From: Trichomonas vaginalis G3
Lineage: Eukaryota; Parabasalia; Trichomonadida; Trichomonadidae
DNA length: 64,000 bases
Assembly (NCBI RefSeq): GCF_026262505.1
Contig: NC_067204.1
Coordinates: forward strand, 8,589,797 to 8,653,796
Direction of reading: 5' to 3'
The notes beneath the pieces were generated by a model. That model did no database searches. It had not been told where the DNA came from and saw only the letters and a program-made list of their open reading frames with translations. The translations under genes were made by a program, and so were the position numbers. Shown here in pieces: positions 3,070 through 54,478 of this stretch (within the stretch, counting starts at the first letter, position 1; each line of letters opens with the position of its first letter).

Positions 3070-4921
3070 ATGAACATAAATGAAGAATACGAGTACATAA
3101 GTTTAACAAACAATCCGTACTCATTCGTTCGGTCAAAGACGATATGTACAAATGCAAAGTATTTTGACCAGCTGTTTTGCTCCAGACACTAACTCACCTA
3201 CAGACTGGTCAAAAACCAAAGCACACAAGAACTAAGTGAAGCACAGCGAGAACGACTTTTTCTGAAAACCAGTAAGAAACAAGCGAGACCGACTTTCCTT
3301 CGGGGTCGACTAAAACTCATGAAACAGTGAAATTTCTTAGACGGACTTTTTATCGGCATCTTCTCTCCACTTCGACTTAGAAAATATAGCACGTTTACTG
3401 CAAACAAGATGTAAGAATTTTAAGAGAAGTTTTTGTTAAAGTTCCGCAATGACTTATTGAAAGAGTTTGATTTAAACGTTTATGACTACGTTAGTATTTG
3501 TTCTATTGCTAACAAATTGTTTGAGAACAGAGTATACTTCCCGAATGGAAATCTTTATGACCTCTCCAAATAACCAAGAGAATTTATTTCGAGATGCATT
3601 CAAGGTGGAAGATGTATGTTTGTCAGATAACATGAAACAAAAGAGAAAAAAAACTCATTGCTGACTTCGACACTGTTTCATTATATCCTCAGCGTTATAG
3701 CAAGATTGTTATACTTTAGAAGGAATTCCAAAAGTATGAAGGGTGAGATGCTAAGCACAGAGTATCTCATGAGACATTTATTCGATGATGCACAAAAGGA
3801 ACCCATTGGTGAAAAGTTATGTCTGGCTTCTTTGTTCTCATTAAGATAACAGAGATTGGTATACCAGACACTTTCATTTAATAGTTTGCGACCCTGAACT
3901 AAATCCAGAACTTAACGTTCCAAGAAGTTCAAACACTTGCTGTCTCATGTATGTTGACCATATTAACATTACAAGACCTCATAAAATATCAATGTGTCAA
4001 ATGTGAAGTGTTGCAAGGATACTATTACGATGGAAACAGAGATATGAGAATAAGAGATGAAGTAAAGAAGTTGTTTGAGTTAAGGTTAAAGTATAAGAAA
4101 GAAGGAAACCCCTTACAAGAAATTATAAAACTCATTCTGAACAGCATTTATGGCAAAACTATTCTATCTCCTATTGAGTCAAAAAATAACCATAGTAAAT
4201 GACAAAGATGCTATAAGATATGCTATAAGAAATTACAACCATATAGTGAAGTCGAAGGTTTGGATGGTTCAGATAAAACTATTTTCAAGCTAACGAAAAG
4301 CATTTGCAGACACTTTAACTTCTGTCCACTTGGTGTTAATATTCTGTCTATGTCAAAACGTATTATGAATGAAGTATTCTGTACTGCAGAGGACATGGGA
4401 CTTCAAATCTTTACAGGATACCGACAGTATGCACTTATATAATGAAGACATCCCAAAGCTTGCAGCAGAGTTTAAGAAGAGATATGGTCGCGAACTTATA
4501 GGAAAGAACCTTGGTCAATTTCATAGCGACTTTGCAGAAATAACACCTGGAAAACAAAGTTTAGCTTATAAAAGTATTTTCTGTGGAAAGAAGACCTACA
4601 TAGACTTACTCACGAATGATTTAAATGAAGTTGCTTCACTGCAGAATGAAAGGCGTGAAGCAAGATGTTATTGCTTTAACCGCTAATGAAATGTTTCCTG
4701 AAGCTATACAATGCTATTACAATGAAGATAAGAACATTCACATACCTGTTGGAACATATGACAAAGACTCTGAGTTCAGTTTAATGAAACTTTACAAAGC
4801 ACTTTATGATGGTCAAGAGATTGCATTCGACTTATGTAAGTCATGTCAACCTTGCTTTGCTGAAAAGTTCAACTTTTCAATAACGACTAAAACAAGCTTT
4901 ATTCGTAAGTTGAAGTTCTGA
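3070..4921 (+). pseudogene. Protein-primed family B DNA polymerase, decayed
   Basis: Family B polymerase motifs appear in order across shifting frames: an Exo III-like YCKQDV near 3400, motif A ADFDTVSLYP near 3665-3690, motif B LNSIYGKT near 4135-4160, motif C DTDS near 4418-4430, and a C-terminal KKTYID near 4590. Order and spacing fit the protein-primed polymerases of Mavericks, which replicate the element's DNA. The gene has many frameshifts and stops, and the exonuclease region (3190-3390) is badly damaged or partly deleted, so no enzyme can be made. The ATG at 3070 is the best start candidate. The family call is strong. Confidence 0.8.
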
Positions 4922-5108
4922 GGTCATTTATTTTTGTCAGCAATGAGGTCATGAATGAGGTCATGAATGAGGTCATGAATGAGGTCATTCGTGATAAAAA
5001 TAAAGCTAGCGTAGATTTTACAATACTGCGATGGTAGAGTTTAAGAGTTGTGTTTCAATGTAGAGACAGTCCTTATGGTCTGGAGGCAAGAACACTGGGC
5101 AGTTATGG
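4922..5108. other. Spacer between convergent Maverick genes
   Basis: The spacer begins with the T-rich motif at 4927-4935 and the 12-bp tandem repeats described separately. The rest shows no coding potential. Confidence 0.5.
4945..4988. repeat. 12-bp tandem repeat, about 3.7 copies
   Basis: GAGGTCATGAAT is repeated at 4945, 4957 and 4969, with a final partial copy at 4981. A further GAGGTCAT overlaps the polymerase stop at 4920-4927, so the array may have grown from the 3' end of that gene. Confidence 0.9.
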
Positions 5109-5880
5109 TCATGAGTGGAGAACATGTCTATCCAAAAACTCACGATTGAAGCCAGTTAATTTATAGTATTTAGGGTTAGGAAGTGGTGAAGTTCTTGTAT
5201 GACCAATGAACTCATTTTCAACTCCTTTACTTAAGTTTGAATATAATATAGCTTGCTTTCTATCCCAAATGCCAGGTGTTACAATCTTTGAAAATTCATT
5301 TTTCCTCGGAAGCATTGCATCATAATTGAAAACATTCTTAAAATCATCACTTGGTTCGGAGATTTGAAACCTTATACGTAATGGATTTTTTTTCTCTTTA
5401 GCGACTTCATTGAATGGTGAGAATACAATGAATTGACAGTCATGAGTTCCATCTTCATTTTCATTAAATTCATAATGAAAGTCTATAAGTTGTGGCTGAC
5501 TACCTTCTTCTTTCAGTTGTGCAAGAAACTCACGTAAAGGCTGTAAAGTTTGTACTTCAATGTTGAACTTTTTCTCGAACATCTCATTAAATGAAATCAT
5601 ACATTGCAACAATGTTGTATCGTCTTTAAAGTATTTGTATATGTGAATGTTTTGGGCGCTTAAAGACTGTTCGTCATTTTCTATCTCGACTTGAAGTATA
5701 AAGTCAACCTTTCTGAAAGCACGTGTTATATACATAGATGTTATGCCAATGTACTTCTCTTCATTTATGTTCACAATCCAGTCTGTTGGAAACTTAAACG
5801 TTACTCTGTTCCCTTTATTTTGACGTCAGGGTTTTCACTACTGAACGCAACAGATAAAGGTATTGTCTATACATTTAGTT
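5109..5880 (-). pseudogene. Unknown Maverick protein, near-intact C-terminal 221 codons
   Basis: A minus-strand frame open from 5774 to 5109 encodes 221 residues. Coding-like sequence continues upstream in the same frame to about 5812 (reading TFKFPTDWIVNINEEKYIGI) and then in another frame toward 5880, so the true N-terminus is lost to a frameshift near 5815. The protein is soluble-looking, of mixed alpha/beta character, with no transmembrane segment. It lies between the polymerase and the capsid-like gene, a position where other Polintons carry virion or packaging genes. That role is inference; I do not recognise the family. Confidence 0.45.
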
Positions 5881-5896
5881 CGGTAAAATAAACCAT

Positions 5897-6165
5897 TTAC
5901 TCTTTCTTTGCTTCAGCTTCTTTAGCTTTTGCTTCAGCTTCTTCTCTAGCTTTCTTTGCCAGCAAACGTGGTTCTTTTGTCTTCCAGCAGCTAATGCAGC
6001 AAGTTGTTTTCACTAAGTTTTCTCTTTGGTCTCTCTGGCTTTTGTTCTTGTTTTTGTTCTTCAGTTCGGATAAAATTTGCTCACGAATTTCTTTCTTCAA
6101 TGCTTCAACATCTATGACCCCTTGGTCTTGTCCGTAGGGCTTGTCTGAGTCATTTGACTGCAGAT
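5897..6165 (-). pseudogene. Small Lys/Glu/Ala-rich coiled-coil Maverick protein
   Basis: The minus-strand frame ends in an Ala/Lys/Glu repeat (REEAEAKAKEAEAKKE) with very high helix and coiled-coil propensity. Coding-like sequence extends upstream of the first ATG (6100) to about 6165 without an ATG, so the 5' end is missing or the start is damaged. It follows the 5109-5880 gene in the same orientation across a 16-bp gap. No family recognised; a small structural or DNA-binding role is possible. Confidence 0.35.
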
Positions 6166-6198
6166 AAAAAACTAAATTAAAACTTTAACCGATGTAAA

Positions 6199-6617
6199 AT
6201 GAGCTTGTCAAAATCAGAACGAGAGTCTATTATATTAAATGACGCCAGAGGAATACAACATCCTTTCTATTATGTAAGTCAGAGTAAAGATGGTAAAATA
6301 TATGTAAGAAAAAGAAAGGTTCCATTAGCGAATGCAGAGAGCGACAACATTAAGGTGCATGGCAAGGGCGAAGCCCACGAAGCCCATATATAAAACCTTC
6401 TGTTCAAACTGAAAAGTCAATAGAACAAGAAGAAAGAAGCCAGATGTTCTTTCAATAACGAACCAAGAGCTTATGCAAAGTTCGTGAATTTCATTGAAAA
6501 GCAAACGAGTCAAAGAACCCTGACCCGCCAGTGAAAGAAGTTGAGACAAAAGAGAATGTACAGTTCATTGAAAATGTCAAGAAACAACTTCCACCACGAA
6601 TGCCAAGAGAAGAGTGA
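6199..6617 (+). pseudogene. Small basic Maverick protein with FYxxxxxKDGxxxxRKxKxPL motif
   Basis: An ATG in the context GTAAAATG starts a frame of 64 codons ending near 6393. A shift near 6390 continues coding-like sequence to a TGA at 6617, with another stop near 6446. The N-terminal part contains FYYVSQSKDGKIYVRKRKVP, which resembles a segment of the gene at 8752-8987, so the two look paralogous. It directly precedes the capsid-like gene. Function unknown. Confidence 0.45.
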
Positions 6618-6658
6618 GAATAATGAAGTAAATAGATATTTTTATCTGAAGTAAATAC

Positions 6659-8231
6659 ATGCAGAACGAACAGCTAAACGAATTTACTCCAGCAGAGCAT
6701 ATTCATCAGATTCGCTCATATTTCGATATCATAGACAATGCAGTTCAAATTGGTGACACTAATAGAAAATATTCTGACGCAAAGATTCCATCACAACCTG
6801 GAACTGCTAAAGATAACACATGGTAACATTCAATCTCTCACTCCTGGTGAAAATATGTTGGACCTTTACAATACATTCATTACGTATAAAATGGAAGGTC
6901 AATTTATTGTAGATAAAGAAATTGATTCAGGTTCCAATAAAACAAAACCCACCAGGATTTTGGATTGGTTTCGATGACGCTTTCTATGCAGTTGCTGGAT
7001 ATCAAATCCTTGCAAATGGTCGTATCGTATATTCTCAAGACAACGCAAGAGAAGAAGCATATATAACTTCAAACTCACAAACTACCGAACAAATAAAGAA
7101 AGTAGATGTTTTCTCAAAGACTCGACATGAAGATGTATGGAGTCATTCGGGAACATGCAGAACAGGACAAATTGTTAGTGGTCCAATTACAGCAGGAAAA
7201 TCATTTGATTTTAAGCTTCGTTTAAGAATTCCTGTTAGAAGATTCCTTCCATTAGAAGCTATTCGATTTATTCCAGCTTTTGCAGGAAACATTCAGCTTA
7301 AAGTAAAGTTCAGTAGCGACGCCTTACAATGCACATCTATATCTGTAAATGATATCATTGTTTCAATCCAACTCTTAAAGTTGCATTTGCTTCAGATTCA
7401 AATCCACCGACAAATAAATTTGTTCCATGGAATGAACCATTCACTATGATAACGAAGGCAGTAGAAGCTAGTGGAACAGTTACTATTACAACTGTAAACC
7501 AGCAACTATTTCGAACAAAGATGGATTTTAATGAATGTTTCATTCATCCAAAGTCATTCTCTTTAGACCCTAACATTTATACAGAACTTGTAGAACATTA
7601 TACAAACGAGGCTTTATGTTTTCCTGTTAAAGTTATGGATTGGATTCTCTATGGACGGTTCATTCTCAAAAAATACAGATAGTTCAAGTGCAACATTTAC
7701 AGCAGCTTATACGCCTATTAATGTTAAAGTATTTGGGCACTATTTAGAAAGAAAGACAACTATTATGTTAATTTTGAGAACCCTAAGTTTAAATATCTTC
7801 AGCTTTCCATGGGAGCTTATGGAAATATGCCTGCAGAACCTGAAAAATCATATGGACCTGTATTTTATGAAATGGTTGCGAACGCTTGCAAAACAAAACA
7901 TGATATGATAGGATTTAATGAAGATGTTATGAGGTCATTGGTGGATGATGGTAGTGTGGAACATAAATGGGATAGCTATGACAACACACATTTCTTATGT
8001 GGTTTTCCAACAGAAGTGGACTTTTGCTTCCAACAAGGTCAAACATCTACTGCTCCAATAACATACAAATTGTCTGTTAAAGGACCTATTGAACTAGCAA
8101 CTGAAAACGTACCAAAGCCACTTATTGGATTTATGAGGGATTGTTGCTTTGCCATTCAGGTGCGTGCTAATGGAATCCCAATAATAAGATTAGATGACTA
8201 TAACTTAGCCACGGACGACAGTGAGGAATAA
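6659..8231 (+). pseudogene. Capsid-like protein of the Maverick, frameshifted
   Basis: From the ATG at 6659 a coding sequence equivalent to about 520 residues runs to TAA 8231, broken by about five frameshifts (near 6825, 6940, 7370, 7650 and 7795). The longest clean blocks are 6922-7370 and 7809-8231. The length, the beta-rich composition and the place among small virion-type genes match the major capsid (double jelly-roll) gene of Polintons. I recognise it as the trichomonad Maverick capsid-type protein by overall character rather than by a diagnostic motif. With this many breaks it cannot make a full product. Confidence 0.6.
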
Positions 8232-8261
8232 AGGATGAACGTTTATTTTTAAAGCTTATAA

Positions 8262-8702
8262 ATGAGTTCTTCATCAAGCTCTCGTGAACCTTCACCATCT
8301 ATGAAACAAACTTTACCAAACGATTATGGAGCACCTATTGAATATTTTTACGAGCTGCACAATGGCAAAGAGCAGTCTCACAAGGTTAGGTGTTCCACCA
8401 GCTCCTGTCAAAAATAGCATTTGGTCAAGTCCTTATATAAAATATGGTCTCCCACTAGGTTTGCTAGCTACAGCAGGAGCAGTTATTGATGTTGAAAAGA
8501 AATAAAGCAAATGTTGTAAATAATACTGAAGTAGCTGAAGTTAAACAAACTCCGACACCATCACAAAACAACACCTTCAATGACTCCTGAACCTATGAAA
8601 GTACAAACTCCTGTTCAAAAGTCAACTCCTAAACCGACTCCAACATTTAAACCAGAACCTACTCCTCAAATAAATCGTAAAACTCCTGCGTTTCCTTACT
8701 GA
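8262..8702 (+). pseudogene. Small membrane protein with Pro/Thr-rich tail, frameshifted
   Basis: The gene starts 30 bp after the capsid stop, just downstream of GAACGTTTATTTTTA. It begins with a Ser-rich N-terminus (MSSSSSSREPSPSM). After a shift near 8370 it gives a hydrophobic segment (YIKYGLPLGLLATAGAVIDV), followed in further frames by a Pro/Thr/Lys-rich tail ending at TGA 8702. At least two or three frameshifts are present. The architecture suggests a small membrane-associated or virion-internal protein; no family is recognised. Confidence 0.4.
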
Positions 8703-8751
8703 AAAAATAACGTTATTTTTATTTAATATTAAAATTTTATTTTTGATTGAA

Positions 8752-8987
8752 ATGACGACTAAAGTCACTGAAGCAATGAAACAAAAGTTTTTGGTAGAAT
8801 ACATTAAATCAGGAGCGTTCCAGAAGGTTTTTACGTTCATACTATGAAGGATGGTAGAGTTCAGTTTAGAAAGATAAAGCAACCATTAGATAGAGAAGGT
8901 ATATTAAGGAAGATTAAACTTCATGAGGACAACATTGCTGAACTTAAGAAGAAGTTAGAAGAGTTGGAGAAAGGAAGAGAGTTATAA
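8752..8987 (+). pseudogene. Small basic coiled-coil Maverick protein, one frameshift
   Basis: The ATG at 8752 follows a T-rich leader (8713-8748). One frameshift near 8818 separates the N-terminal 23 codons from the rest, which ends at TAA 8987. The total would be about 78 residues. The middle has GFYVHTMKDGRVQFRKIKQP, similar to the segment in the gene at 6199, and the C-terminus is a probable coiled coil (AELKKKLEELEKGREL). Function unknown. Confidence 0.45.
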
Positions 8988-10233: not shown

Positions 10234-10234
10234 T
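10205..10234. repeat. 13-bp hairpin at repeat boundary
   Basis: AATTTTTGACGCC / GGCGTCAAAAATT with a 4-base loop (CAAA). It ends exactly where the 350-bp dispersed repeat begins, so it probably marks a junction. Confidence 0.75.
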
Positions 10235-10583
10235 AGGCGTAAAGCAAAATTTGATATTTCATATGGTTTTATGATAGATAAGCATTATATTCACACTCAT
10301 TATATTCGTAAATTTTGAGGTTTATCCTTCGCTTTTAAGATCATTGAATTTGATTTTTATATAAAATAGTTATATATTAGAAAATAATATGAGTTTATGT
10401 GATATTATTTTTCAGAAGATTTTGTGTTCTTCTTCAAAATTTTATTTTTTTATTAAAAAGAATCTTTACAAAATATACATTTACTTTAATTAATATTTAA
10501 AAACGTGCTCTATCAAAAGTTCCAAAAATTCAATATTTTAGCTTTTCTGAGGTGTCACTTTTGATGAATTTCTGTTTACAACA
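10234..10583. repeat. 350-bp dispersed repeat, copy 1
   Basis: Base for base this copy matches 52425-52774 with about two substitutions (for example at the ATATTC[A/C]CACTC site). It carries an Inr (TCACTTTT) and an ATG near its right end and stops abruptly at TTTACAACA, after which the two loci are unrelated. Copy 2 has an extra inverted left arm that copy 1 lacks. Confidence 0.9.
10555..10566 (+). promoter_or_regulatory. Inr TCACTTTT plus ATG inside the dispersed repeat
   Basis: TCA at 10555-10557 and ATG at 10564 have the spacing of a trichomonad core promoter. The ATG opens only a 10-codon frame, offset from the ankyrin frame that follows. Confidence 0.6.
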
Positions 10584-20778: not shown

Positions 20779-21194
20779 ATATTGGCTTTTTCCTCAAATT
20801 TTCAAATCAAATTCAATTTCTCAAAATGACGTAGAAATTATCCTTCCTGCGTTCGCCAAACGCATTCTTACATCCAGTGCTCTCTTTGTACCCTCAGAGA
20901 ACTGAAAATTGCTCATGGTCATACGAAATTTCTATTCAAAATTATTCTCATATCAAAACATCCTGTTGTTATTTTATTTTGTATTGTCTATGAATAAACA
21001 TATCTTTTATTATATTTTTAAAAAACTTCTTTGCAACTCACTGAAAAATATATAGTTTTGTTAAAATCAAATTTTGAATTGATGGGAATTAAAATTTATT
21101 TTCATTTCATTAATATTGTTTTTTATTTATTTCTAATGAAATCCATATTTGAAAATATCAGAAAAAGAAAAAAAGAGTATCTTAGATAAGAATA

Positions 21195-23594
21195 TTATAT
21201 TTTTGCACCATGTGAAATAAGAAGTTCGGCTGTTTCTTTATCTATATAACGTGCTGTTTTATGAAGAGCGGTTTGTCCAAAATTATCTTTTTCATTGATA
21301 TTTGCACCACGTGAAATAAGAAGTTCGGCTGTTCCTTTACTATTATTTTCTGCTGCAATATGAAGAGCGGTTTGTCCATCATTATCTTTTTCATTGATAT
21401 TTGCACCACGTGAAATAAGAAGTTCGGCTGTTTCTTTATCTATATAACGTGCTGTTTTATGAAGAGCGGTTTGTCCAAAATTATCTTTTTCATTGATATT
21501 TATACCTTGTGAAATATGAAGTTCGACTGTTTCTTTATTATTATGAATTACTGCTTTATGAAGAGCGGTTTGTCCAAAATTATCTTTTTCATTGATATTT
21601 GCACCACGTGAAATAAGAAGTTCGGCTGTTTCTTTACTATTATTTTCTGCTGCAATATGAAGAGCGGTTTGTCCATCATTATCTTTTTCATTGATATTTA
21701 TACCTTGTGAAATATGAAGTTCGACTGTTTCTTTATTATTATGAATTACTGCTTTATGAAGAGCGGTTTGTCCAAAATTATCTTTTTCATTGATATTTGC
21801 ACCACGTGAAATAAGAAGTTCGGCTGTTCCTTTACTATTATTTTCTGCTGCAATATGAAGAGCGGTTTGTCCATCATTACCTTTTTTATTGATATTTATA
21901 CCTTGAGAAATAAGAAGTTCAGCTATTTCTTTACTATCTTTTTGTGCAGCATAATGAAGAGCTGTTTGTCCAAAATTATCTTTTTCATTGATATTTATAC
22001 CTTGTGAAATATGAAGTTCGGCTGTTCCTTTACTATTATTTTCTGCTACATAATGAAGAGCGGTTGTTCCATGTTTATCTTTTTTATTGATATTTATACC
22101 TTGAGAAATAAGAAGTTCGGCTGTTCCTTTACTATTATTTTCTGCTGCAATATGAAGAGCGGTTTGTCCATCATTACCTTTTTTATTGATATTTATACCT
22201 TGAGAAATAAGAAGTTCAGCTATTTCTTTACTATCTTTTTGTGCAGCATAATGAAGAGCTGTTTGTCCAAAATTATCTTTTTCATTGATATTTATACCTT
22301 GTGAAATATGAAGTTCGGCTGTTCCTTTACTATTATTTTCTGCTACATAATGAAGAGCGGTTGTTCCATGTTTATCTTTTTTATTGATATTTATACCTTG
22401 AGAAATAAGAAGTTCGGCTGTTCCTTTACTATTATTTTCTGCTGCAATATGAAGAGCGGTTTGTCCATCATTACCTTTTTTATTGATATTTATACCTTGA
22501 GAAATAAGAAGTTCAGCTATTTCTTTACTATCTTTTTGTGCAGCATAATGAAGAGCTGTTTGTCCAAAATTATCTTTTTCATTGATATTTATACCTTGTG
22601 AAATAAGAAGTTCGGCTATTTCTTTACTATTATTGTAGGTTGAATTATGAAGAGATGTTCGTCCATATTTATCTTTTTCATTGATATTTGCACCGTTTGA
22701 TAGGAAATATTCACAAAGAGATGGAATATTAAACATTCCAGAATTAATATAGAATTTGTTAATATCATTAGTTTGATCGAAATAAACTAAAAATGATTCA
22801 AGATTATTATGCTTTGCGCAATAAAATAAATCGATCTTTATATTGTATTCATTCATCAAGAATGTAAAAAAATCAATGTTGTGTGAAATAATTGCATATT
22901 CCATACATTCTACATCTGGTGTTTGATATTTCAAACATTCACTCAAGATCTCTATGTTTCTGCCTAAAAATGAAAATTGAAGACATTTTTGAGTTATTTC
23001 TGAGCTAAATTTCGTTCTTAACAACTTAAAACAATCAACTGCTCCATGGTAACAACATAATTCAAGTAATGAATATCCTTGATAATAAACTGGATATAAA
23101 CTATTCTCAAGTGTTTGATCTTTATCAAATCCATCTATTTCAGTGAATGTAATGAATCTTTCTAAGTCATTATACATAATTGCTATGTAAATTGTATCTT
23201 CTGTATGAATTTCAAGATTTTCTGAATTCATGTTTTCAAAATCGGCAGATTTGTCTATTTCAAAATATTCTTTGTAAAACAGGAATTTTGAAATAGTTTC
23301 AACGCAGTTGACCTCTGTGACATGGTAATCATCAGATAAGAGTTTGGCAAGGTATAAATATGACTTTGTATAGCGATTATTATACGGAATTATATTTAAA
23401 ATGTCTCGAATAATTATTTGGGGAGGGTGTTTATGTGAATCAATCAATTCTGTTTTGATCAGTTTGTAAATTGAGTTTAAATCTTCTTCCTTTTCAGTTT
23501 TCAGCTGATACAACGCATTATATGAATCAATGTAGTATTTACCGATACTTCGCAGTTCGCTAAATTTATTTGGATGAATGTCTTTGTCGGACAT
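21195..23594 (-). CDS. DUF3447-type ankyrin protein with about 15 near-identical repeats
   Basis: The start is the ATG at 23594 (MSDKDIHPNKFSEL); the frame upstream begins with TTG only. Residues 1-320 are the helical DUF3447-type region shared with the genes at 28350 and 40697 (LLELCCYHGAVDCFKLLRTKF, CLQFSFLGRN.EILSECLKY, YAIISHNIDF). About fifteen 33-residue ankyrin repeats follow with a GQTALHxAA core. Repeats are almost identical, and three consecutive ones recur as a 297-bp block, so the array grew by recent tandem duplication. Some repeats carry LHISQG instead of LLISQG. The partner bound is unknown. It ends shortly after the last repeat with no C-terminal domain. Confidence 0.9.
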   Translation of the reverse strand: MSDKDIHPNKFSELRSIGKYYIDSYNALYQLKTEKEEDLNSIYKLIKTELIDSHKHPPQIIIRDILNIIPYNNRYTKSYLYLAKLLSDDYHVTEVNCVETISKFLFYKEYFEIDKSADFENMNSENLEIHTEDTIYIAIMYNDLERFITFTEIDGFDKDQTLENSLYPVYYQGYSLLELCCYHGAVDCFKLLRTKFSSEITQKCLQFSFLGRNIEILSECLKYQTPDVECMEYAIISHNIDFFTFLMNEYNIKIDLFYCAKHNNLESFLVYFDQTNDINKFYINSGMFNIPSLCEYFLSNGANINEKDKYGRTSLHNSTYNNSKEIAELLISQGININEKDNFGQTALHYAAQKDSKEIAELLISQGININKKGNDGQTALHIAAENNSKGTAELLISQGININKKDKHGTTALHYVAENNSKGTAELHISQGININEKDNFGQTALHYAAQKDSKEIAELLISQGININKKGNDGQTALHIAAENNSKGTAELLISQGININKKDKHGTTALHYVAENNSKGTAELHISQGININEKDNFGQTALHYAAQKDSKEIAELLISQGININKKGNDGQTALHIAAENNSKGTAELLISRGANINEKDNFGQTALHKAVIHNNKETVELHISQGININEKDNDGQTALHIAAENNSKETAELLISRGANINEKDNFGQTALHKAVIHNNKETVELHISQGININEKDNFGQTALHKTARYIDKETAELLISRGANINEKDNDGQTALHIAAENNSKGTAELLISRGANINEKDNFGQTALHKTARYIDKETAELLISHGAKI
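21815..22640. repeat. 297-bp higher-order tandem repeat inside ankyrin gene
   Basis: Sequence from 22011 to 22304 is repeated at 22308 to 22601 without visible change, and a third copy containing two of the three modules lies to the left. Each unit is three ankyrin repeats (3 x 99 bp). Confidence 0.9.
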
Positions 23595-24870
23595 TAAAAA
23601 ATCGTAAAAGGCCACGAAACGTCTCAATTTTTAACGTGCATTTTTTCGAAAATTTTCACTTGTATCGTATTAATTTTTACTGGAATCGTATTTAAATTTT
23701 AACGGTATCATATATAAAATGAGTGCGGGACAAATTTGCTAAGTGTCACTTTTTCAATAACCTTAAATTACGCTTTTCTAATTTTTTAAAAAAATAACCT
23801 TAAATTATATTTGAAGAAATTCTGTCTATGATATATGTTTTATGCTAGAATCTTGGAGTTTTCATGCACTACACAAGAGCTCCAAGGTTCCAAGAGTGAA
23901 TGCTCAATAGCAATTATAGAGATGTACCTTTTCAAAATGACTTTTACTGATTAAATTTAATCAATAGAAGACATTTTGAAAAGGTACCTCTACAATTAGA
24001 TATACAAGAGATTCAAAGCTTCATTTCAGATAGATTTGAAACTTTGAAACTCTTGGTAGATTTTGAGTGAATGCTGACAATCATCTTTGAGAAGGTTTTC
24101 TCTAAGAAAACCTTCTCAAAGAGGTTTCTCAGGAGCCCTGAGGCTCCCTTTCGTAATGATTGGGAGCCTTGGGGCTCCTGAGACGAAGAATGGCTTCGCC
24201 GAATCTTTGATCAGCAGAGGCCAAATGAAAAGGCCTCTGCTGATGGATTCTCAGGAGCCCTGAGGCTCCCTTTCGTAATGATTGGGAGCCTTGGGGCTCC
24301 TGCAGCAGAGTATCGCTCCGCTCCATTAATTTTCTTTTAAAAAAAGTGCCGTGTGGCAAATTTGTCCTGTTCCCTATATAAAATTTAACGGTAAGTATTT
24401 TTTTAAAAGGACATATTTGTATTTTAATATATGAACATCTTTTAAGCTCATTATAAGAAATAAATAATATGTTAGACGTGCGGAAATCTATGATCACAAA
24501 GATTTCGGAAATAATTTATCAACTTTAATTAAGTTCATAGGTATTAAATGATACAACAACAATAGAAAAGTCGAAGCAATAAGATTTTCATCCGGATGAT
24601 TATATTCAAACATGCTTGTAATGATTAAGTTGAAAATTGTTATTATATTAAAGGGTTTAAATCTATGAAACCATGGATTACAAATCAGATGTATAGTTCA
24701 AAAAAAAAAAAAAATCAATAAATATCAGAACCAACCCTTAAAAACAAATTTAGATAATTCATAAATCATTAGAAAAGGGTAAATAAATAGTTTATTGAAA
24801 GGGGAAAAAAAATTAAAATTTTTAAAACAAATTACATTTAAAATACTATATATAATATATTGATAATAAA
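23595..24870. other. 1.3-kb non-coding region with stem-loop array
   Basis: No gene is supported; the minus-strand frame at 24129-24497 lies mostly in hairpins. An orphan Inr-like TCACTTTTTCAATAACC occurs at about 23745 on the plus strand. The stem-loop array is at 23852-24302. The remainder (24310-24870) is plain AT-rich sequence. Confidence 0.6.
23852..24302. repeat. Seven consecutive stem-loops, including a duplicated 54-bp unit
   Basis: In order: CTTGGAG/CTCCAAG (23852/23880); TAGAG..TACCTTTTCAAAATG arms (23917-23939/23972-23992); CAAGAGATTCAAAG arms (24005/24042, 13 of 14); CTTTGAGAAGGTTTT arms (24085/24107); a 54-bp imperfect palindrome (24127-24180); ATCAGCAGAGGCC arms (24210/24232); and an exact second copy of the 54-bp unit (24249-24302). 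Confidence 0.85.
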
Positions 24871-28349: not shown

Positions 28350-29987
28350 TTATCTTGGGTTATGGTCCTTTTCGTTTAGAGCTTTTATTGTGTTTCTATT
28401 TTTCCGCGATGCTGCATAATTTAATGCTGTTTTCCCTTTGTTATCTTTTGCTTTAACGTCCGCACCATGGGCAATCAGAAAATCAATTGTTTCTATTCTA
28501 TCCCATTCTGCTGCAGCCATAAGGGGAGTCTTCCCATTATTATCCTTCGAATTGATATCGGCACCAAGAGTGATAAGAAGCTCCATTGTTTCTTTTCTAT
28601 TCCATTCTGCTGCAGAAATAAGTGCAGTTTTCCCATTATCATCTTTAGCATTTAATTCTGCACCATGAGATGCCAATAGGTTTACAAGTTCTTGATAATT
28701 ATTCATCGCAGCATAATGGAGAGCTGTTAATCCCATGCTTTCTTTGGCATCAACATTAGCTCCATTAGAAAGGAGAAGTTCTGCTATTTCTTTGTTGTTA
28801 TTCCATACTGCATTATGAAGACATGTTAATCCGAAGTTATCACCAATATTTACATCTGCACCATGCGATAAAAGAAATTCCATAATACTTTTATTTTGCA
28901 ATTTCATTGAAAGATGGAGAGCTGTTAATCCACCATTATCTTTTGCATTAATTGAAATACCACGTGATAAAAGAAACTCTGCTAATATGTTCAGTTTTCT
29001 TTGCAATACAAAATAAAGAACAGTACCACCAGATTTAGTTTTTGCATTAATATCTGCGCCAAGAAAAAGTATTTTTTCAATTATTCCTATATGATTGAAA
29101 TTTATTGATTGAATGTAGCAATCGTTGATGTCATTCATATTAATGCAATCATAATAAACCAAAAATGCTTGAATGTTATGATATCTTTGACATTCCTCAA
29201 TATTAATTGCTAATTCGTATTCATTCATCAAAAAAGTTACAAAATCAATGTTGTGGGAAATGATAGCATTGGTCATACACTTTTCATTTGGATAACATGT
29301 TTTCAAACATTCGTGCATTATCTCTGGATTGCCACCTAAAAATGATAATTCAAGACATTTCGTTGTAATTATTGAATCGAACTTTGTCCTAATAAATTTA
29401 AAACAATCAACTGCTCCATAATAACAACATAATTCAAGCAATGTATAGCGGTTGTTATTTTCCGGATAGAATTCGCTTGATAGTAATTGTTTTTCATCAA
29501 AATCATTATTTTCTGCGATCGAAATAAATTGCTCTTTATTGTCATGCATAATGGCTTCATATATTGTGTATTTTTGATGAATATCTAATGAAAAATCTTT
29601 CCAAGAATATCTTTTGAAATTTTTTTCTAAGTTATTTTTATCAAGTGATTTTCCATATTCTTTATAAACAAAGTAATCGAAAAGAGGATTTATGTTCAAT
29701 ACTTGATTCGGATGAAATTCTTCATAGCTCAATTTGAAAATTGTGAAGTATGATCTTAAATAACAATTATTATATAAAAAAATCTCAGACATAGTTCTAA
29801 TAATCTCTTCAGCTGAAGATATTTTAGAATCTATCAAATTAATTTTGATCTTTTGGTAAATTTTGTTCAACTCCGCGTTGTCATAAGTTTTCAAAGCATA
29901 TAATGATGCAAATGCATCATTGTATGCTTCACAATGAGGAAATAATTCATCAAATAGGCCAGAAGTATCACTTATGAACCTATTCAT
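28350..29987 (-). CDS. DUF3447-type ankyrin repeat protein, 545 aa
   Basis: Residues 1-300 are the DUF3447-type helical region, close to that of the genes at 21195 and 40697 (LLELCCYYGAVDCFKFIRTKF, CLELSFLGGNPEIMHECLK, AIISHNIDFVTFLMNEYE). About seven ankyrin repeats follow (GGTVLYFVL, GLTALHLSM, GLTCLHNAV, GLTALHYAA, GKTALISAA, GKTPLMAAA, GKTALNYAA). Repeats here are diverged, in contrast to the homogenised array at 21195. A possible Inr TCACGACTTTT lies about 25 nt upstream. It is probably a cytosolic protein-binding scaffold; the partner is unknown. Confidence 0.9.
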   Translation of the reverse strand: MNRFISDTSGLFDELFPHCEAYNDAFASLYALKTYDNAELNKIYQKIKINLIDSKISSAEEIIRTMSEIFLYNNCYLRSYFTIFKLSYEEFHPNQVLNINPLFDYFVYKEYGKSLDKNNLEKNFKRYSWKDFSLDIHQKYTIYEAIMHDNKEQFISIAENNDFDEKQLLSSEFYPENNNRYTLLELCCYYGAVDCFKFIRTKFDSIITTKCLELSFLGGNPEIMHECLKTCYPNEKCMTNAIISHNIDFVTFLMNEYELAINIEECQRYHNIQAFLVYYDCINMNDINDCYIQSINFNHIGIIEKILFLGADINAKTKSGGTVLYFVLQRKLNILAEFLLSRGISINAKDNGGLTALHLSMKLQNKSIMEFLLSHGADVNIGDNFGLTCLHNAVWNNNKEIAELLLSNGANVDAKESMGLTALHYAAMNNYQELVNLLASHGAELNAKDDNGKTALISAAEWNRKETMELLITLGADINSKDNNGKTPLMAAAEWDRIETIDFLIAHGADVKAKDNKGKTALNYAASRKNRNTIKALNEKDHNPR

Positions 29988-40696: not shown

Positions 40697-42151
40697 ATGC
40701 CATATCCAAAGATTCCTCCAATAAAATACAGTAAATTGAGAAGTATCTATAAATACTATATCGATTCATATATTGCATTATATCAGTTAAAAACGGAAAA
40801 TGAGGAAGAATTAAGGAAAATTTACAAAATGATCAAAATGGAATTGATTGATTCCAAGAAATGCCATCCCAAAAATGTTATTAAAAATATTTTAAATATC
40901 ATTCTGTATAATAATCGCTATGCAAAGTCATATTTGGAACTTGCAAAATTAATATTTGATGAATATCATGTCAACGAGGTCAGTGATATCATAAATATTT
41001 CAAACTTCCTGTTCTATAAAGAGTATGGAATTAAATTAAACAACTCTCAAGGTTTCGGCGAAATTAAATTAACAAATCTCGATGTTCATTCAGAAGATAC
41101 AATTTACAGAGCAATTATGTATAATGACCTAGATATATTCATCTCATTCACGGAGAGAGAAGGGTTTAATAAAAATAAAAAACTCAAGAGCAGTTTATAT
41201 CCAGAATCTAAAGCAAGATATTCATTACTTGAATTATGTTGTTATCACGGAGCAATTGATTGTTTCAAGTTTTTAAGAGTGAAATTTAACTCAAAAATAA
41301 CTCAAACATGCCTTCAATTTTCATTTTTAGGCAGAAACAAAGAGATCTTGAGTGAATGTTTGAAATATCAAAAACCAGATGAAGAATGTATGGAATATGC
41401 AATTATTTCACACAACATTGATTTTGTTACATTTTTGATGAAGGAACACAATATAGGGATCGATTTATTTTATTGTGCACAGTATAATAATCTTGAATCA
41501 ATGTTAGTCTATTCTGATCACAATTACAAAGACTATTTTAATTTTAACAAATGTTTACTCTATTCAGGAATGTTTGAAATTGCATCTCTATGCGAATATT
41601 TCATTTCACATGGTGCATTTATCAATGTGAGTAATTCTCACAGACAAACAACTCTTCATTTTGCAACAATTAATGATTGTAAAGAAATTGTGGAACTTCT
41701 TCTTCTACATGATGCAAATATCAATAAAAAAGATATTTACGGAAAAACTGCGCTTCATTGGGCAGCATATTATAATAGTAAGGAAACGGTCGAACTTCTT
41801 ATTTCATATGGTGTAAATATCAATGAGAAAGATGACTCTGGATATACTGCTCTCGATTTTGCGGCTTGTTTTAATCATTACGAAATTGCCCAACTTCTTA
41901 TTTCAAATGGCGCGAATATTAGTGAAAAAGTTAAAAATGAACTAACTGCCCTACATTTTGCAGGATTACATAATAGTAAAGAAACAGTTGGACTCCTCAT
42001 TTCTTATGGTGTAAATATCAATCAGAAAGATAAAACTGGATACAACGCTTTTAATTTTGCAACACATAGAAATAGTCAAGAAACAGCGGAACTTCTAATT
42101 TCATATGGTGCTACTATCAATGCAATGATTGCTAGAATGAAAATTAAATAA
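40697..42151 (+). CDS. DUF3447-type ankyrin repeat protein, 484 aa
   Basis: The ATG at 40697 (MPYPKIPPIKYSKLRSIYKYYIDSY) gives an N-terminus aligned with that of the gene at 21195 (FSELRSIGKYYIDSYNALYQLKTE), which supports the start. The helical DUF3447-type region (to about 305) is very similar to its paralogue. About five diverged ankyrin repeats follow (RQTTLHFATI, GKTALHWAAY, GYTALDFAAC, ELTALHFAGL, GYNAFNFATH). Together with 10688, 21195 and 28350 this is the fourth family member in the window. Function beyond protein binding is unknown. Confidence 0.9.
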   Translation: MPYPKIPPIKYSKLRSIYKYYIDSYIALYQLKTENEEELRKIYKMIKMELIDSKKCHPKNVIKNILNIILYNNRYAKSYLELAKLIFDEYHVNEVSDIINISNFLFYKEYGIKLNNSQGFGEIKLTNLDVHSEDTIYRAIMYNDLDIFISFTEREGFNKNKKLKSSLYPESKARYSLLELCCYHGAIDCFKFLRVKFNSKITQTCLQFSFLGRNKEILSECLKYQKPDEECMEYAIISHNIDFVTFLMKEHNIGIDLFYCAQYNNLESMLVYSDHNYKDYFNFNKCLLYSGMFEIASLCEYFISHGAFINVSNSHRQTTLHFATINDCKEIVELLLLHDANINKKDIYGKTALHWAAYYNSKETVELLISYGVNINEKDDSGYTALDFAACFNHYEIAQLLISNGANISEKVKNELTALHFAGLHNSKETVGLLISYGVNINQKDKTGYNAFNFATHRNSQETAELLISYGATINAMIARMKIK

Positions 42152-51541: not shown

Positions 51542-51802
51542 TTAAGCATTAACTCTTGGGCGGATTTCGACCTGATCAGCAAGAAGGATGCGGCCGCCTG
51601 TTGGTGTAGCAAGTGGTGTCTGGCAGTTCTTGCAGAAAACTGGAACGTTAGAGTGTGAGAATGCTGTTGTAAGTCCTGTGCAGGATGGGCAGCGAAGGGA
51701 GAGGAACTCGGAACGTGGATTTGGAACGAGTGTCATCTTCTTGTTTGTGTGAGCTTCTTGCTCAACAGTTGGGTGGAGAATATCAACATCAAGAGTTGTC
51801 AT
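51542..51802 (-). CDS. 40S ribosomal protein eS27
   Basis: An 86-residue protein with the eS27 layout: a short N-terminus (MTTLDVDILHPTVEQEAHTN), the zinc-ribbon CPSC and CKNC at about residues 38-41 and 58-61, and the conserved TGLTTAFSHSNVPVFCKNC and TPTGGRILL. It is a structural part of the small ribosomal subunit. Length matches the family (82-86). The promoter lacks a clear TCA Inr, which occurs in a minority of trichomonad genes. Confidence 0.95.
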   Translation of the reverse strand: MTTLDVDILHPTVEQEAHTNKKMTLVPNPRSEFLSLRCPSCTGLTTAFSHSNVPVFCKNCQTPLATPTGGRILLADQVEIRPRVNA

Positions 51803-52291
51803 TTCAAAGGCGGGACCAAGACTTTACATATCGTCTTGTGAAATTTTCCCCAATAAAAACATGTTTCTTTTATGAATATCAAGACTAAAATCATCAAGAA
51901 GCCTGAATTTGGAATTAAAAGTTCATTTCGACTTGGAATGAAATCCAACAAATTTCAATTCTTCAAATTATTTACTCAAACTATTGAAATCATGCCACGC
52001 AGTTCATGTAATAACTTAAAATAATGTGATAATGCTATTTCTTCATAAGATTATTTGGCGATATTCCAGAAAAACACCAATAAAGAAAAATCAATACCCT
52101 GTCATTACACAGCCTAAGTGTGTAATAAACAGAAATTCATCAAAAGTGACAGCTCTCAATTTTTTGACATTTGTAAATTCTAAATTGAATGAGAAAAATG
52201 AAATAATACTAAGCATAATACAATATTCTAGATTTAATTATAATTAAGAAAAAGTTAGTTTTGAGAGTACTTTTCATAGGCATATAGAATG

Positions 52292-52613
52292 AAATCTTCT
52301 GAAAAATAATATCACATAAACTCATATTATTTTCTAATATATAACTATTTTATATAAAAATCAAATTCAATGATCTTAAAAGCGAAGGATAAACCTCAAA
52401 ATTTACGAATATAATGAGTGGGAATAGGCGTAAAGCAAAAATTGATATTTCATATGGTTTTATGATAGATAAGCATTATATTCCCACTCATTATATTCGT
52501 AAATTTTGAGGTTTATCCTTCGCTTTTAAGATCATTGAATTTGATTTTTATATAAAATAGTTATATATTAGAAAATAATATGAGTTTATGTGATATTATT
52601 TTTCAGAAGATTT
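52292..52613. repeat. Perfect 135-bp inverted repeat around a 52-bp spacer
   Basis: I compared 52292-52426 with the reverse complement of 52479-52613 base by base and found no mismatch. The spacer is 52427-52478. Mismatch begins abruptly at both ends. No protein is encoded. Confidence 0.95.
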
Positions 52614-52774
52614 TGTGTTCTTCTTCAAAATTTTATTTTTTTATTAAAAAGAATCTTTACAAAATATACATTTACTTTAATTAATATTTAAAAACGTGCT
52701 CTATCAAAAGTTCCAAAAATTCAATATTTTAGCTTTTCTGAGGTGTCACTTTTGATGAATTTCTGTTTACAACA
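52425..52774. repeat. 350-bp dispersed repeat, copy 2
   Basis: Matches 10234-10583. It comprises the palindrome's spacer and right arm plus 161 bp more, including an Inr TCACTTTT at 52746-52753 and ATG at 52755. The ATG opens 10 codons here and leads to no gene. Confidence 0.9.
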
Positions 52775-53056
52775 AGTGTGCAATTAATATTTATCATTTT
52801 ATTTTCTTAATTTTTTTTTGTTGGATCCGCTTCAATTCCGACTCTATTTTTTTCTCCATTCATATAAATTGTTTGTGCATATGTTATACACCCGACTTCT
52901 CTTGTCACGCTCTCAAAAACCCGAATGCCTCTCAAAAATTTGACATAATTATTTTATTTCTAATTTTTTATAGTATCAATAACGCAGTATTCAAGATTTT
53001 GGCAAAGATAATTTTTTTTCATTGAAAAATTTAATATATTGAATTCAGAAAATTAT

Positions 53057-54478
53057 ATGAGTGATAAATCCTCATCATCAGGCAGCTATTACTCATCAGA
53101 TTCACCAGATAGTTCTCGACACGAGTCAAAGAGATCAAAGGCTAAATCTCGTTTTAAATCTAATTGGAGAAGTTCTGATTCAGATCAATCATCAACATAT
53201 TTATCAGATATTTCATCAGATTCAAAGCAACAAACGAAAACAACCAAAATAAAACATAGTGATCAAGAAGAATCATCAAAATCTTCTAAAAAAGGAGGAT
53301 ATTTCGAGGATAATGATGATATGCTTGACAGCGTTCAAGATGGTGCAAATTGGTGGCAAGCACAGAATTCACTCATGACAAAGATTAATCAGCCATTAAA
53401 TAACAAGCCAAGAGTTCATAATCCAGATAAAGATACAGAATTAATGACAGGAATGTATGAACCAATGGAAATAAGGCCGAAAAACAGTGAATCAGGCAAT
53501 GATTTTGCAAATAATGATGCAGTTGTAGATTTTGACCCAACTTCTTTGAAACATGTTAAAAATTACAATGAAAGTGCGCAAGATTACCTCCTAATTGATC
53601 TCAAGAGTCCACTGATATGGACAATTGGCTTTATGGTACTTGCTGCCATTCATTTAGGATTTGCTTTTTATTTTTGGTACAAAGAAGGCGACAAAGGTTT
53701 CGCAAACTTCAAATCATACAACATTCAAGAGAATTTATACTACGGACCTTCAGCAAAGCTTCTCATGAGAGTTGGAGCTTTGTATCCACCATGGATTTAT
53801 GATGGAGAGTGGTGGAGACTTCTCGTTGCTATTTCTCTTCAACCAGGAGTTGCAATTTTGGCTATTGACATTGTTTACATGGGACTTCTCTACGAGATTG
53901 AAAGATACAATGGTTTCTGGTCAGCTTTGCTAATATTCTTGTTATGCGGACTCTATGGAAACGTTTTATCTTCATACATCATCTCTGAGTCAGTTATTTG
54001 CGGTGCAACAGGAGCTATATGCGGCTGGCTAGGATTTTCTCTCACAAGACTCATTGCAAGTTTCCATATTAAAAAGCGAGTTTGCTATTTGATCACAGAG
54101 ATATTCATGATAATTTTCATTGGTGCTGTTGGAATTCTTCCTTATGTAGACAACTTCCAACATGTTGGAGGATTTGTTTTAGGCGTTTTACTTTCTCTTG
54201 CACTTCTTCCGAACAACACAAAGACAAAATGCGCTGCAATTGCAAGAGGAATCACTGCATTTTTGGCATTCCCTATTATGATCATTGTGTTCTCTGTTGT
54301 TGTAACATTTGTCATCAAGAATAATTTACTTGATGGAAAGTGCAAATTCTGCCCTAAAATACAATGTCAAAATCTAATTAAAAACAAACCATGGTGCTTA
54401 ACAAATATACCTTCCCTGCAAGATGTTTATCCACCAAATATTAGTGATATCAATAAATCTGCAGTCCCAGAAGAATAA
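53057..54478 (+). CDS. Rhomboid-family membrane protein, catalytic Ser replaced (pseudoprotease)
   Basis: The ATG at 53057 (MSDKSSSSGSYYSS) gives a 473-residue protein. Residues 1-175 are Ser/Asp-rich and cytosolic. A rhomboid domain follows: a first membrane helix (IWTIGFMVLAAIHLGFAFYFW), a long loop with the rhomboid WR motif (DGEWWRLLVAI), and five or six more helices. The active-site motif GxSG reads GATG (Thr codon ACA at 54008-54010), so the catalytic Ser is missing. The partner His is kept in DNFQHVGGF. The C-terminal tail has clustered Cys (CKFCPKIQCQ). Without Ser it is probably an inactive rhomboid that binds or chaperones membrane proteins, as iRhoms do. That Thr gives weak activity cannot be excluded. 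Confidence 0.85.
   Translation: MSDKSSSSGSYYSSDSPDSSRHESKRSKAKSRFKSNWRSSDSDQSSTYLSDISSDSKQQTKTTKIKHSDQEESSKSSKKGGYFEDNDDMLDSVQDGANWWQAQNSLMTKINQPLNNKPRVHNPDKDTELMTGMYEPMEIRPKNSESGNDFANNDAVVDFDPTSLKHVKNYNESAQDYLLIDLKSPLIWTIGFMVLAAIHLGFAFYFWYKEGDKGFANFKSYNIQENLYYGPSAKLLMRVGALYPPWIYDGEWWRLLVAISLQPGVAILAIDIVYMGLLYEIERYNGFWSALLIFLLCGLYGNVLSSYIISESVICGATGAICGWLGFSLTRLIASFHIKKRVCYLITEIFMIIFIGAVGILPYVDNFQHVGGFVLGVLLSLALLPNNTKTKCAAIARGITAFLAFPIMIIVFSVVVTFVIKNNLLDGKCKFCPKIQCQNLIKNKPWCLTNIPSLQDVYPPNISDINKSAVPEE

Follow-up and report, generated by a model that had tools for sequence, protein, structure and literature searches.

The perfect 135-bp inverted repeat described here lies in a stretch of 64,000 nt of the Trichomonas vaginalis G3 genome (C2:8589797-8653796, hereafter the window), and very probably belongs to a MITE-like element, non-autonomous and derived by deletion from a DNA transposon of the IS481EU type. 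This reading is built on the ends of the element, its 4-bp duplication, its copy number, the relation between forms of 2417, ~1253 and 654 bp, and a DD34E transposase gene located between the arms of the longest form, all established by sequence comparison within one assembly (180,853,573 bases in 86 contigs).

The inverted repeat and the element around it

The two arms are exact reverse complements (135 of 135 positions) set 52 bp apart, just as an earlier note on this DNA had reported, and a perfect match over 135 bp rules out chance (expectation ~5e-67, given the base composition of the window and arms at most 5 kb apart). The same note was right that no gene accounts for the repeat, as no open reading frame of at least 100 aa was found in the window that overlaps it. 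The arm ends, which it had described as abrupt, are so in the sense that the adjoining base pairs are mismatched on both the outer and the inner side; the boundaries themselves are nevertheless internal to a larger element (Table 1). Indeed, the inverted-repeat scan also returned an outer pair (52121-52155 and 52740-52774, 91%) that contains the terminal inverted repeats (TIRs) of this element.

The element is located between the divergent genes for ribosomal protein S27e and a rhomboid-domain protein, ~319 bp from the start of the former and about 282-283 bp from the first ATG of the latter. A second copy in the window, for which a left end was looked for and not found, is by its anatomy a truncated member of the same family. 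The earlier claim that only the right half of the repeat is shared with another locus holds inside the window (10234-10583 against 52425-52774) but fails genome-wide, where both arms recur together.

Table 1. Features of the window that bear on the inverted repeat (window coordinates).
Feature	Position	Strand	Remarks
Left target-site duplication, AGTG	52117..52120	.	4-bp offset from flank comparison of copies
Non-autonomous transposon copy, 654 bp, TGTAATAAACAG...CTGTTTACAACA	52121..52774	+	
Left terminal inverted repeat, 31 bp	52121..52151	+	2 mismatches against right TIR
Left-end unique segment	52152..52291	+	
Palindrome left arm, 135 bp	52292..52426	+	about positions 171-305 of the 2417-bp element
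'Spacer', 52 bp	52427..52478	+	inner part of right arm, left-arm partner deleted
Palindrome right arm, 135 bp	52479..52613	-	
Right-end unique segment	52614..52743	+	
Right terminal inverted repeat	52744..52774	-	
Right target-site duplication, AGTG	52775..52778	.	
Second family copy, right half only	10234..10583	+	99.4% over 350 bp; right TIR at 10553-10583
Ribosomal protein S27e gene, neighbour	51542..51802	-	
Rhomboid-domain protein gene, neighbour	53057..54478	+	first in-frame ATG 53057

Other repeats and gene remnants exist in the window. Short open reading frames at 3951-8840, to the left of the truncated family copy, look like remnants of a fragmented element, presumably of the Maverick type. 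Direct repeats of 99 bp form arrays at 21152-22837, 28409-28906 and 41643-42137 (the first two are related to each other) and are compatible with protein repeats of 33 residues, presumably ankyrin-like.

Copies in the genome and target-site duplications

A DNA search of the assembly with positions 52100-52800 yielded 1129 candidates, the best 40 of which were scored; all 40 are copies of ~655 bp with 98-100% identity and carry both arms together (39, and later 60, copies were aligned). Counting copies across the genome, as the earlier note had proposed, was the right test; the two arms co-occur at dozens of loci. When the flanks of 43 listed copies were compared, one being short-flanked, a single dominant offset gave a 4-bp duplication in 33 of the 42 with enough flank, and this offset sets the ends of the element at 52121 and 52774. 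A 25-mer from the TIR has 2176 exact matches in the genome (1093 + 1083), and its reversed control none.

Complete copies, defined by an exact TIR 25-mer at both ends and distinct flanks, number 84 among all loci retrieved. In the flank test for the class of 4-bp target-site duplications (TSDs), 68 of them have identical 4-bp flanks and 16 do not, and the duplicated sequences vary among copies. The spacing of TIRs reveals more than one length class: by hand count over the first 100 TIR places listed, 33 facing pairs lie within 3 kb of each other, 20 of them at 1226-1251 bp, four at ~642 bp and nine at other distances.

Longer forms and the origin of the palindrome

The commoner, ~1253-bp form (19 copies) has arms of ~450 bp, which start close to position 171 and nearly reach the centre, and is devoid of a transposase gene. 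Such a gene, encoding 346 aa, is held by a central insert of 1.1 kb at one locus (L071, C1:1023346-1025950), where the copy measures 2417 bp and its arms (171-621 and 1805-2257) are 98.9% identical. The window element corresponds to positions 1-305 plus 2070-2417 of this copy, at ~99% identity. With 135 bp retained from the left arm and ~189 bp from the right, what is left is a 135-bp palindrome and 52 bp of unpaired right arm; judged from this alignment, the window copy is an internal-deletion derivative, and its 'spacer' is right arm that has lost its partner. The deletion junction shows an overlap of 2 bp in the window copy; in the alignment, four other deletion copies (L073, L074, L075 and L078) overlap by 7 to 15 bp. 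The 654-bp form may have come from the ~1253-bp form or straight from the 2417-bp one.

The long arms are not a quirk of L071 and belong to the full element, as follows from two observations: the arm adjoining the 5′ side of the gene is retained in all of the best 40 of 1243 DNA candidates (a sample that favours intact arm/gene boundaries, as copies without the boundary would fall outside it), and a unit taken from an array (L108) contains the gene with both arms.

This array is one of two on C4 (8280067-8605099 and 20779753-21344028), which together hold 80 of the 117 scored transposase matches (32 + 48, hand count); 72 of these 80 have equal scores and many are spaced 8.8-9.15 kb apart. In L108, the one unit retrieved, a family element is present in full, with its two arms, so that a single insertion seems to have been amplified together with its host unit. 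An Rfam search of the array unit gave no match. A 122-bp sub-repeat of the unit (L108:7248-7668) is resembled, over ~70 bp by eye, by a palindromic GGAGCCCTGAGGCTCC-type repeat at 24123-24321 of the window.

The transposase

The 346-aa protein of L071 has the catalytic pattern D-55-D-34-E (DD34E). Among NCBIfam models IS481 ranks first (4.8e-24, best of six families) and IS3 next (7.1e-18), all below their curated cut-offs; in Pfam, rve_3 scores above its cut-off and rve below. Among proteins of solved structure, the best sequence matches are to cores of retroviral integrases (E about 2e-4), a search of 5.8 billion proteins returned two relatives at E <= 1e-5, and a protein search of the genome scored 117 places out of 1250 candidates. 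The open frame suggests that the 2417-bp copy would be autonomous.

Probable exchange between the arms

An exchange of sequence between the long inverted arms would also invert the core between them. Five of the 19 ~1253-bp copies have their core in the opposite orientation with respect to the left end, and one of the other 14 (L101) has two left ends. The spacer of the short form is inverted in one copy (L109) of the 29 in which both unique ends and the spacer were scored, among 40 further short-form loci; the first 40 loci, picked by similarity to the window orientation, are uninformative on inversion.

Shared variants provide a second comparison. When the arms of the full copy and 18 ~1253-bp copies are aligned (L101 was left out, and all the long copies lie within the first 8.9 Mb of C1), 23 sites have one or two minority letters. 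Sixteen of these are singletons, and at all seven sites with exactly two minority letters the pair falls in both arms of one copy (six copies in total), which is expected if arms exchange sequence and is unlike independent mutation; the count was made after inspection of the columns. At columns 108, 170 and 328 the minority letters exceed two in number; most of them agree between the arms of a copy, but in five cases the change is in a single arm. In turn, the inner-end columns 435, 445 and 448 track the orientation of the loop.

The short form behaves differently. Sixty short copies were aligned (39 from the first set of 40 loci and 21 from the second; the remaining loci were without an end by the match rule), and they contain 18 singletons, five two-hit sites shared by different copies and no same-copy two-hit site. 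The contrast between long and short copies, 7:16 against 0:18, has a Fisher P of 0.012, but five polymorphisms of higher frequency among the short copies detract from it: at three of them (52351, 52377 and 52387), the rarer letter is present in both arms of one copy in nine cases, and in one arm only in many. L109, outside the 60, has one matched change by eye. Random re-pairing of arms among the 19 long copies did not make the mean distance significantly worse (P 0.15). Conversion between the arms of one copy is therefore probable on the basis of the matched sites, and not of the re-pairing distance. The likeness of the arms would in part be due to the youth of the family and, in the long forms, to gene conversion within copies.

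Mirror-ended copies and possible inverted duplications

The 84 complete copies comprise 76 with one left and one right end, five with altered marker letters at one end and three with two like ends. All three like-ended copies (L101, L123 and L133) have mirrored host flanks. In L123 the mirror is 17 bp long, and L124, with the same near flanks, is likewise mirrored. In L133, for which 45 bp of host flank were compared on one side, it is at least 45 bp long with a one-base offset; a continuation 1.2-2.3 kb out, in repeated sequence, was not found among the matches listed (best 40 of 4839 candidates). In L101 the mirror takes up the entire 4.4 kb retrieved and extends by DNA search to C1:7567900-7575500, symmetrically about the element (L101, L149 and L151). 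The host DNA here forms a palindrome 7.6 kb or more in length, centred on a family element of ~1253 bp. Each half includes a 4-alpha-glucanotransferase gene, the two being tail to tail, and the frame of the left one is broken as assembled. A fold in the assembly could also produce a palindrome such as that at L101.

In another short-form copy (L115, C1:23696600-23697410) the unique sequence is of the right type at either side. A left-type tip is combined with a shortened TIR at one of its ends, and the mirrored stretch does not reach beyond the element.

Proposed mechanism and alternative explanations

The following sequence of events would account for these observations. In the full element ~453-bp arms flank the transposase gene, and the perfect inverted repeat is their remainder after an internal deletion that fused positions 305 and 2070. 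Transposase from full copies would recognise the 31-bp ends that the short copies have in common with them and mobilise these copies, inserting them with a 4-bp stagger like other integrase-type enzymes; the window copy is an insertion between the S27e and rhomboid genes. Occasionally, exchange between arms would copy one end together with its host flank across, giving an inverted duplication centred on the element.

It is improbable that another transposase moves the short elements and that their likeness to the IS481EU-type element is confined to the ends. Mobilisation by an IS481EU-type enzyme is deduced from sequence, and several other families of DNA transposons inhabit T. vaginalis (PMC7845603, consulted in part); however, besides the TIR, ~305 bp on the left and 348 bp on the right are common to short and full copies at ~99%, and the TSD length agrees with IS481EU.

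A hairpin RNA locus that feeds small-RNA silencing and is retained for that function is similarly hard to credit. A transcript across the repeat would indeed fold into a long hairpin, as the earlier note had anticipated (-204.6 kcal/mol, z -30.5 by computation), and the consulted part of PMC7845603 describes ~34-nt small RNAs matching repeats, as well as PIWI-like Argonautes, in T. vaginalis. Yet private changes in the arms of the 60 short copies are unmatched, as the absence of same-copy pairs beside 18 singletons indicates, and transposition already accounts for the anatomy. In the sequence and gene context of the window copy, nothing was found that points to a host role; silencing may possibly arise as a by-product of the hairpin RNA.

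A recent local inverted duplication of host sequence, which was the earlier interpretation, would explain why the arms are perfect at this locus, but can be practically discounted: arms, spacer and unique ends recur at 98-100% at the best 40 of 1129 candidates, in dispersed copies whose flanks differ and most of which have a 4-bp repeat of their own, so that the arms were inherited within a transposon family. Single-molecule reads are known to give perfect palindromes as an artefact, and an assembly error had been raised as a possibility; that of a folded read is negligible for the structure itself because the structure recurs at dozens of loci with differing flanks, the internal junction of the short form (25-mer) being found exactly 80 times (41 + 39; control 0) in both orientations on contigs C1-C6, with asymmetric unique ends and locus-specific TSDs.

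With the window copy read as a transposon derivative, the arm architecture appears to leave traces of inversion, probable conversion and inverted duplication. Rather more tentatively, and with somewhat less than even confidence, we propose that in this IS481-type eukaryotic transposon the long subterminal arms make the transposase cassette invertible, are homogenised within a copy and sometimes template inverted duplications of host DNA. If so, the family, with some two thousand ends in one genome, would continually supply T. vaginalis with palindromes and with inverted duplications of genes. A lone and puzzling hairpin thus becomes a genome-wide family whose highly similar members include full, shortened, flipped and mirror-ended forms, a natural record of how palindromic transposons lose genes, invert and possibly give rise to inverted duplications in a parasite whose genome is rich in repeats. 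A caution follows as well: a perfect hairpin upstream of a trichomonad gene can be the debris of a transposon and is not necessarily a regulatory RNA.

Comparison with known systems

The superfamily and the MITE nature of the element are already known in kind. IS481EU was described from T. vaginalis itself, with 10 autonomous and 7 non-autonomous families (Kojima & Bao 2023, PMC10045372), and is characterised there by a single IS481-like DDD/E transposase, TNT..AYA ends, TIRs mostly <50 bp and TSDs of ~4, 15 or 25 bp. The present family has one such protein (346 aa, IS481 ahead of IS3, both below cut-offs), TGT...ACA termini, a 31-bp TIR and a 4-bp TSD in 68 of 84 copies, and shares the host and the existence of non-autonomous derivatives. 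By these features it fits IS481EU, which according to PMC10045372 is not separated from IS3EU/GingerRoot in a tree; it may be one of the families named there. The short form, being non-coding and having a TIR, a TSD and ends common with a putatively autonomous element, has the properties of a MITE. What differs is the arms: long inverted arms around the transposase were not found described in the part of the text of PMC10045372 consulted, and no word beginning 'palindrom' occurs in its main text. The most abundant family there has 376 copies with both ends, as against 2176 exact TIR 25-mers here, in another assembly. Titles and abstract starts of the T. vaginalis MITE literature yielded nothing on this family.

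Bacterial IS481 elements provide the best curated match of the transposase and have TG..CA ends in common with the family, which differs in its sub-cut-off score, eukaryotic host and long internal arms. Ginger1 and Ginger2 likewise combine an integrase-type transposase with a 4-bp TSD, and Ginger1 begins with TGT; its TSDs are, however, specific for CCGG/CCGT according to the part of PMC2836005 consulted, whereas those found here are varied. Mutator, mariner and Maverick readings were rejected on the 4-bp TSD, the TGT..ACA ends and the IS481-like protein.

Foldback/Galileo elements of Drosophila, as far as the sources consulted go, are alike in their long inverted repeats, and Galileo is structurally variable and has been linked to inversions through ectopic recombination. 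Galileo nonetheless belongs to the P superfamily and has its long repeats at the very termini, whereas the elements described here begin with a 31-bp TIR, followed by ~140 bp of unique DNA and only then by the arms.
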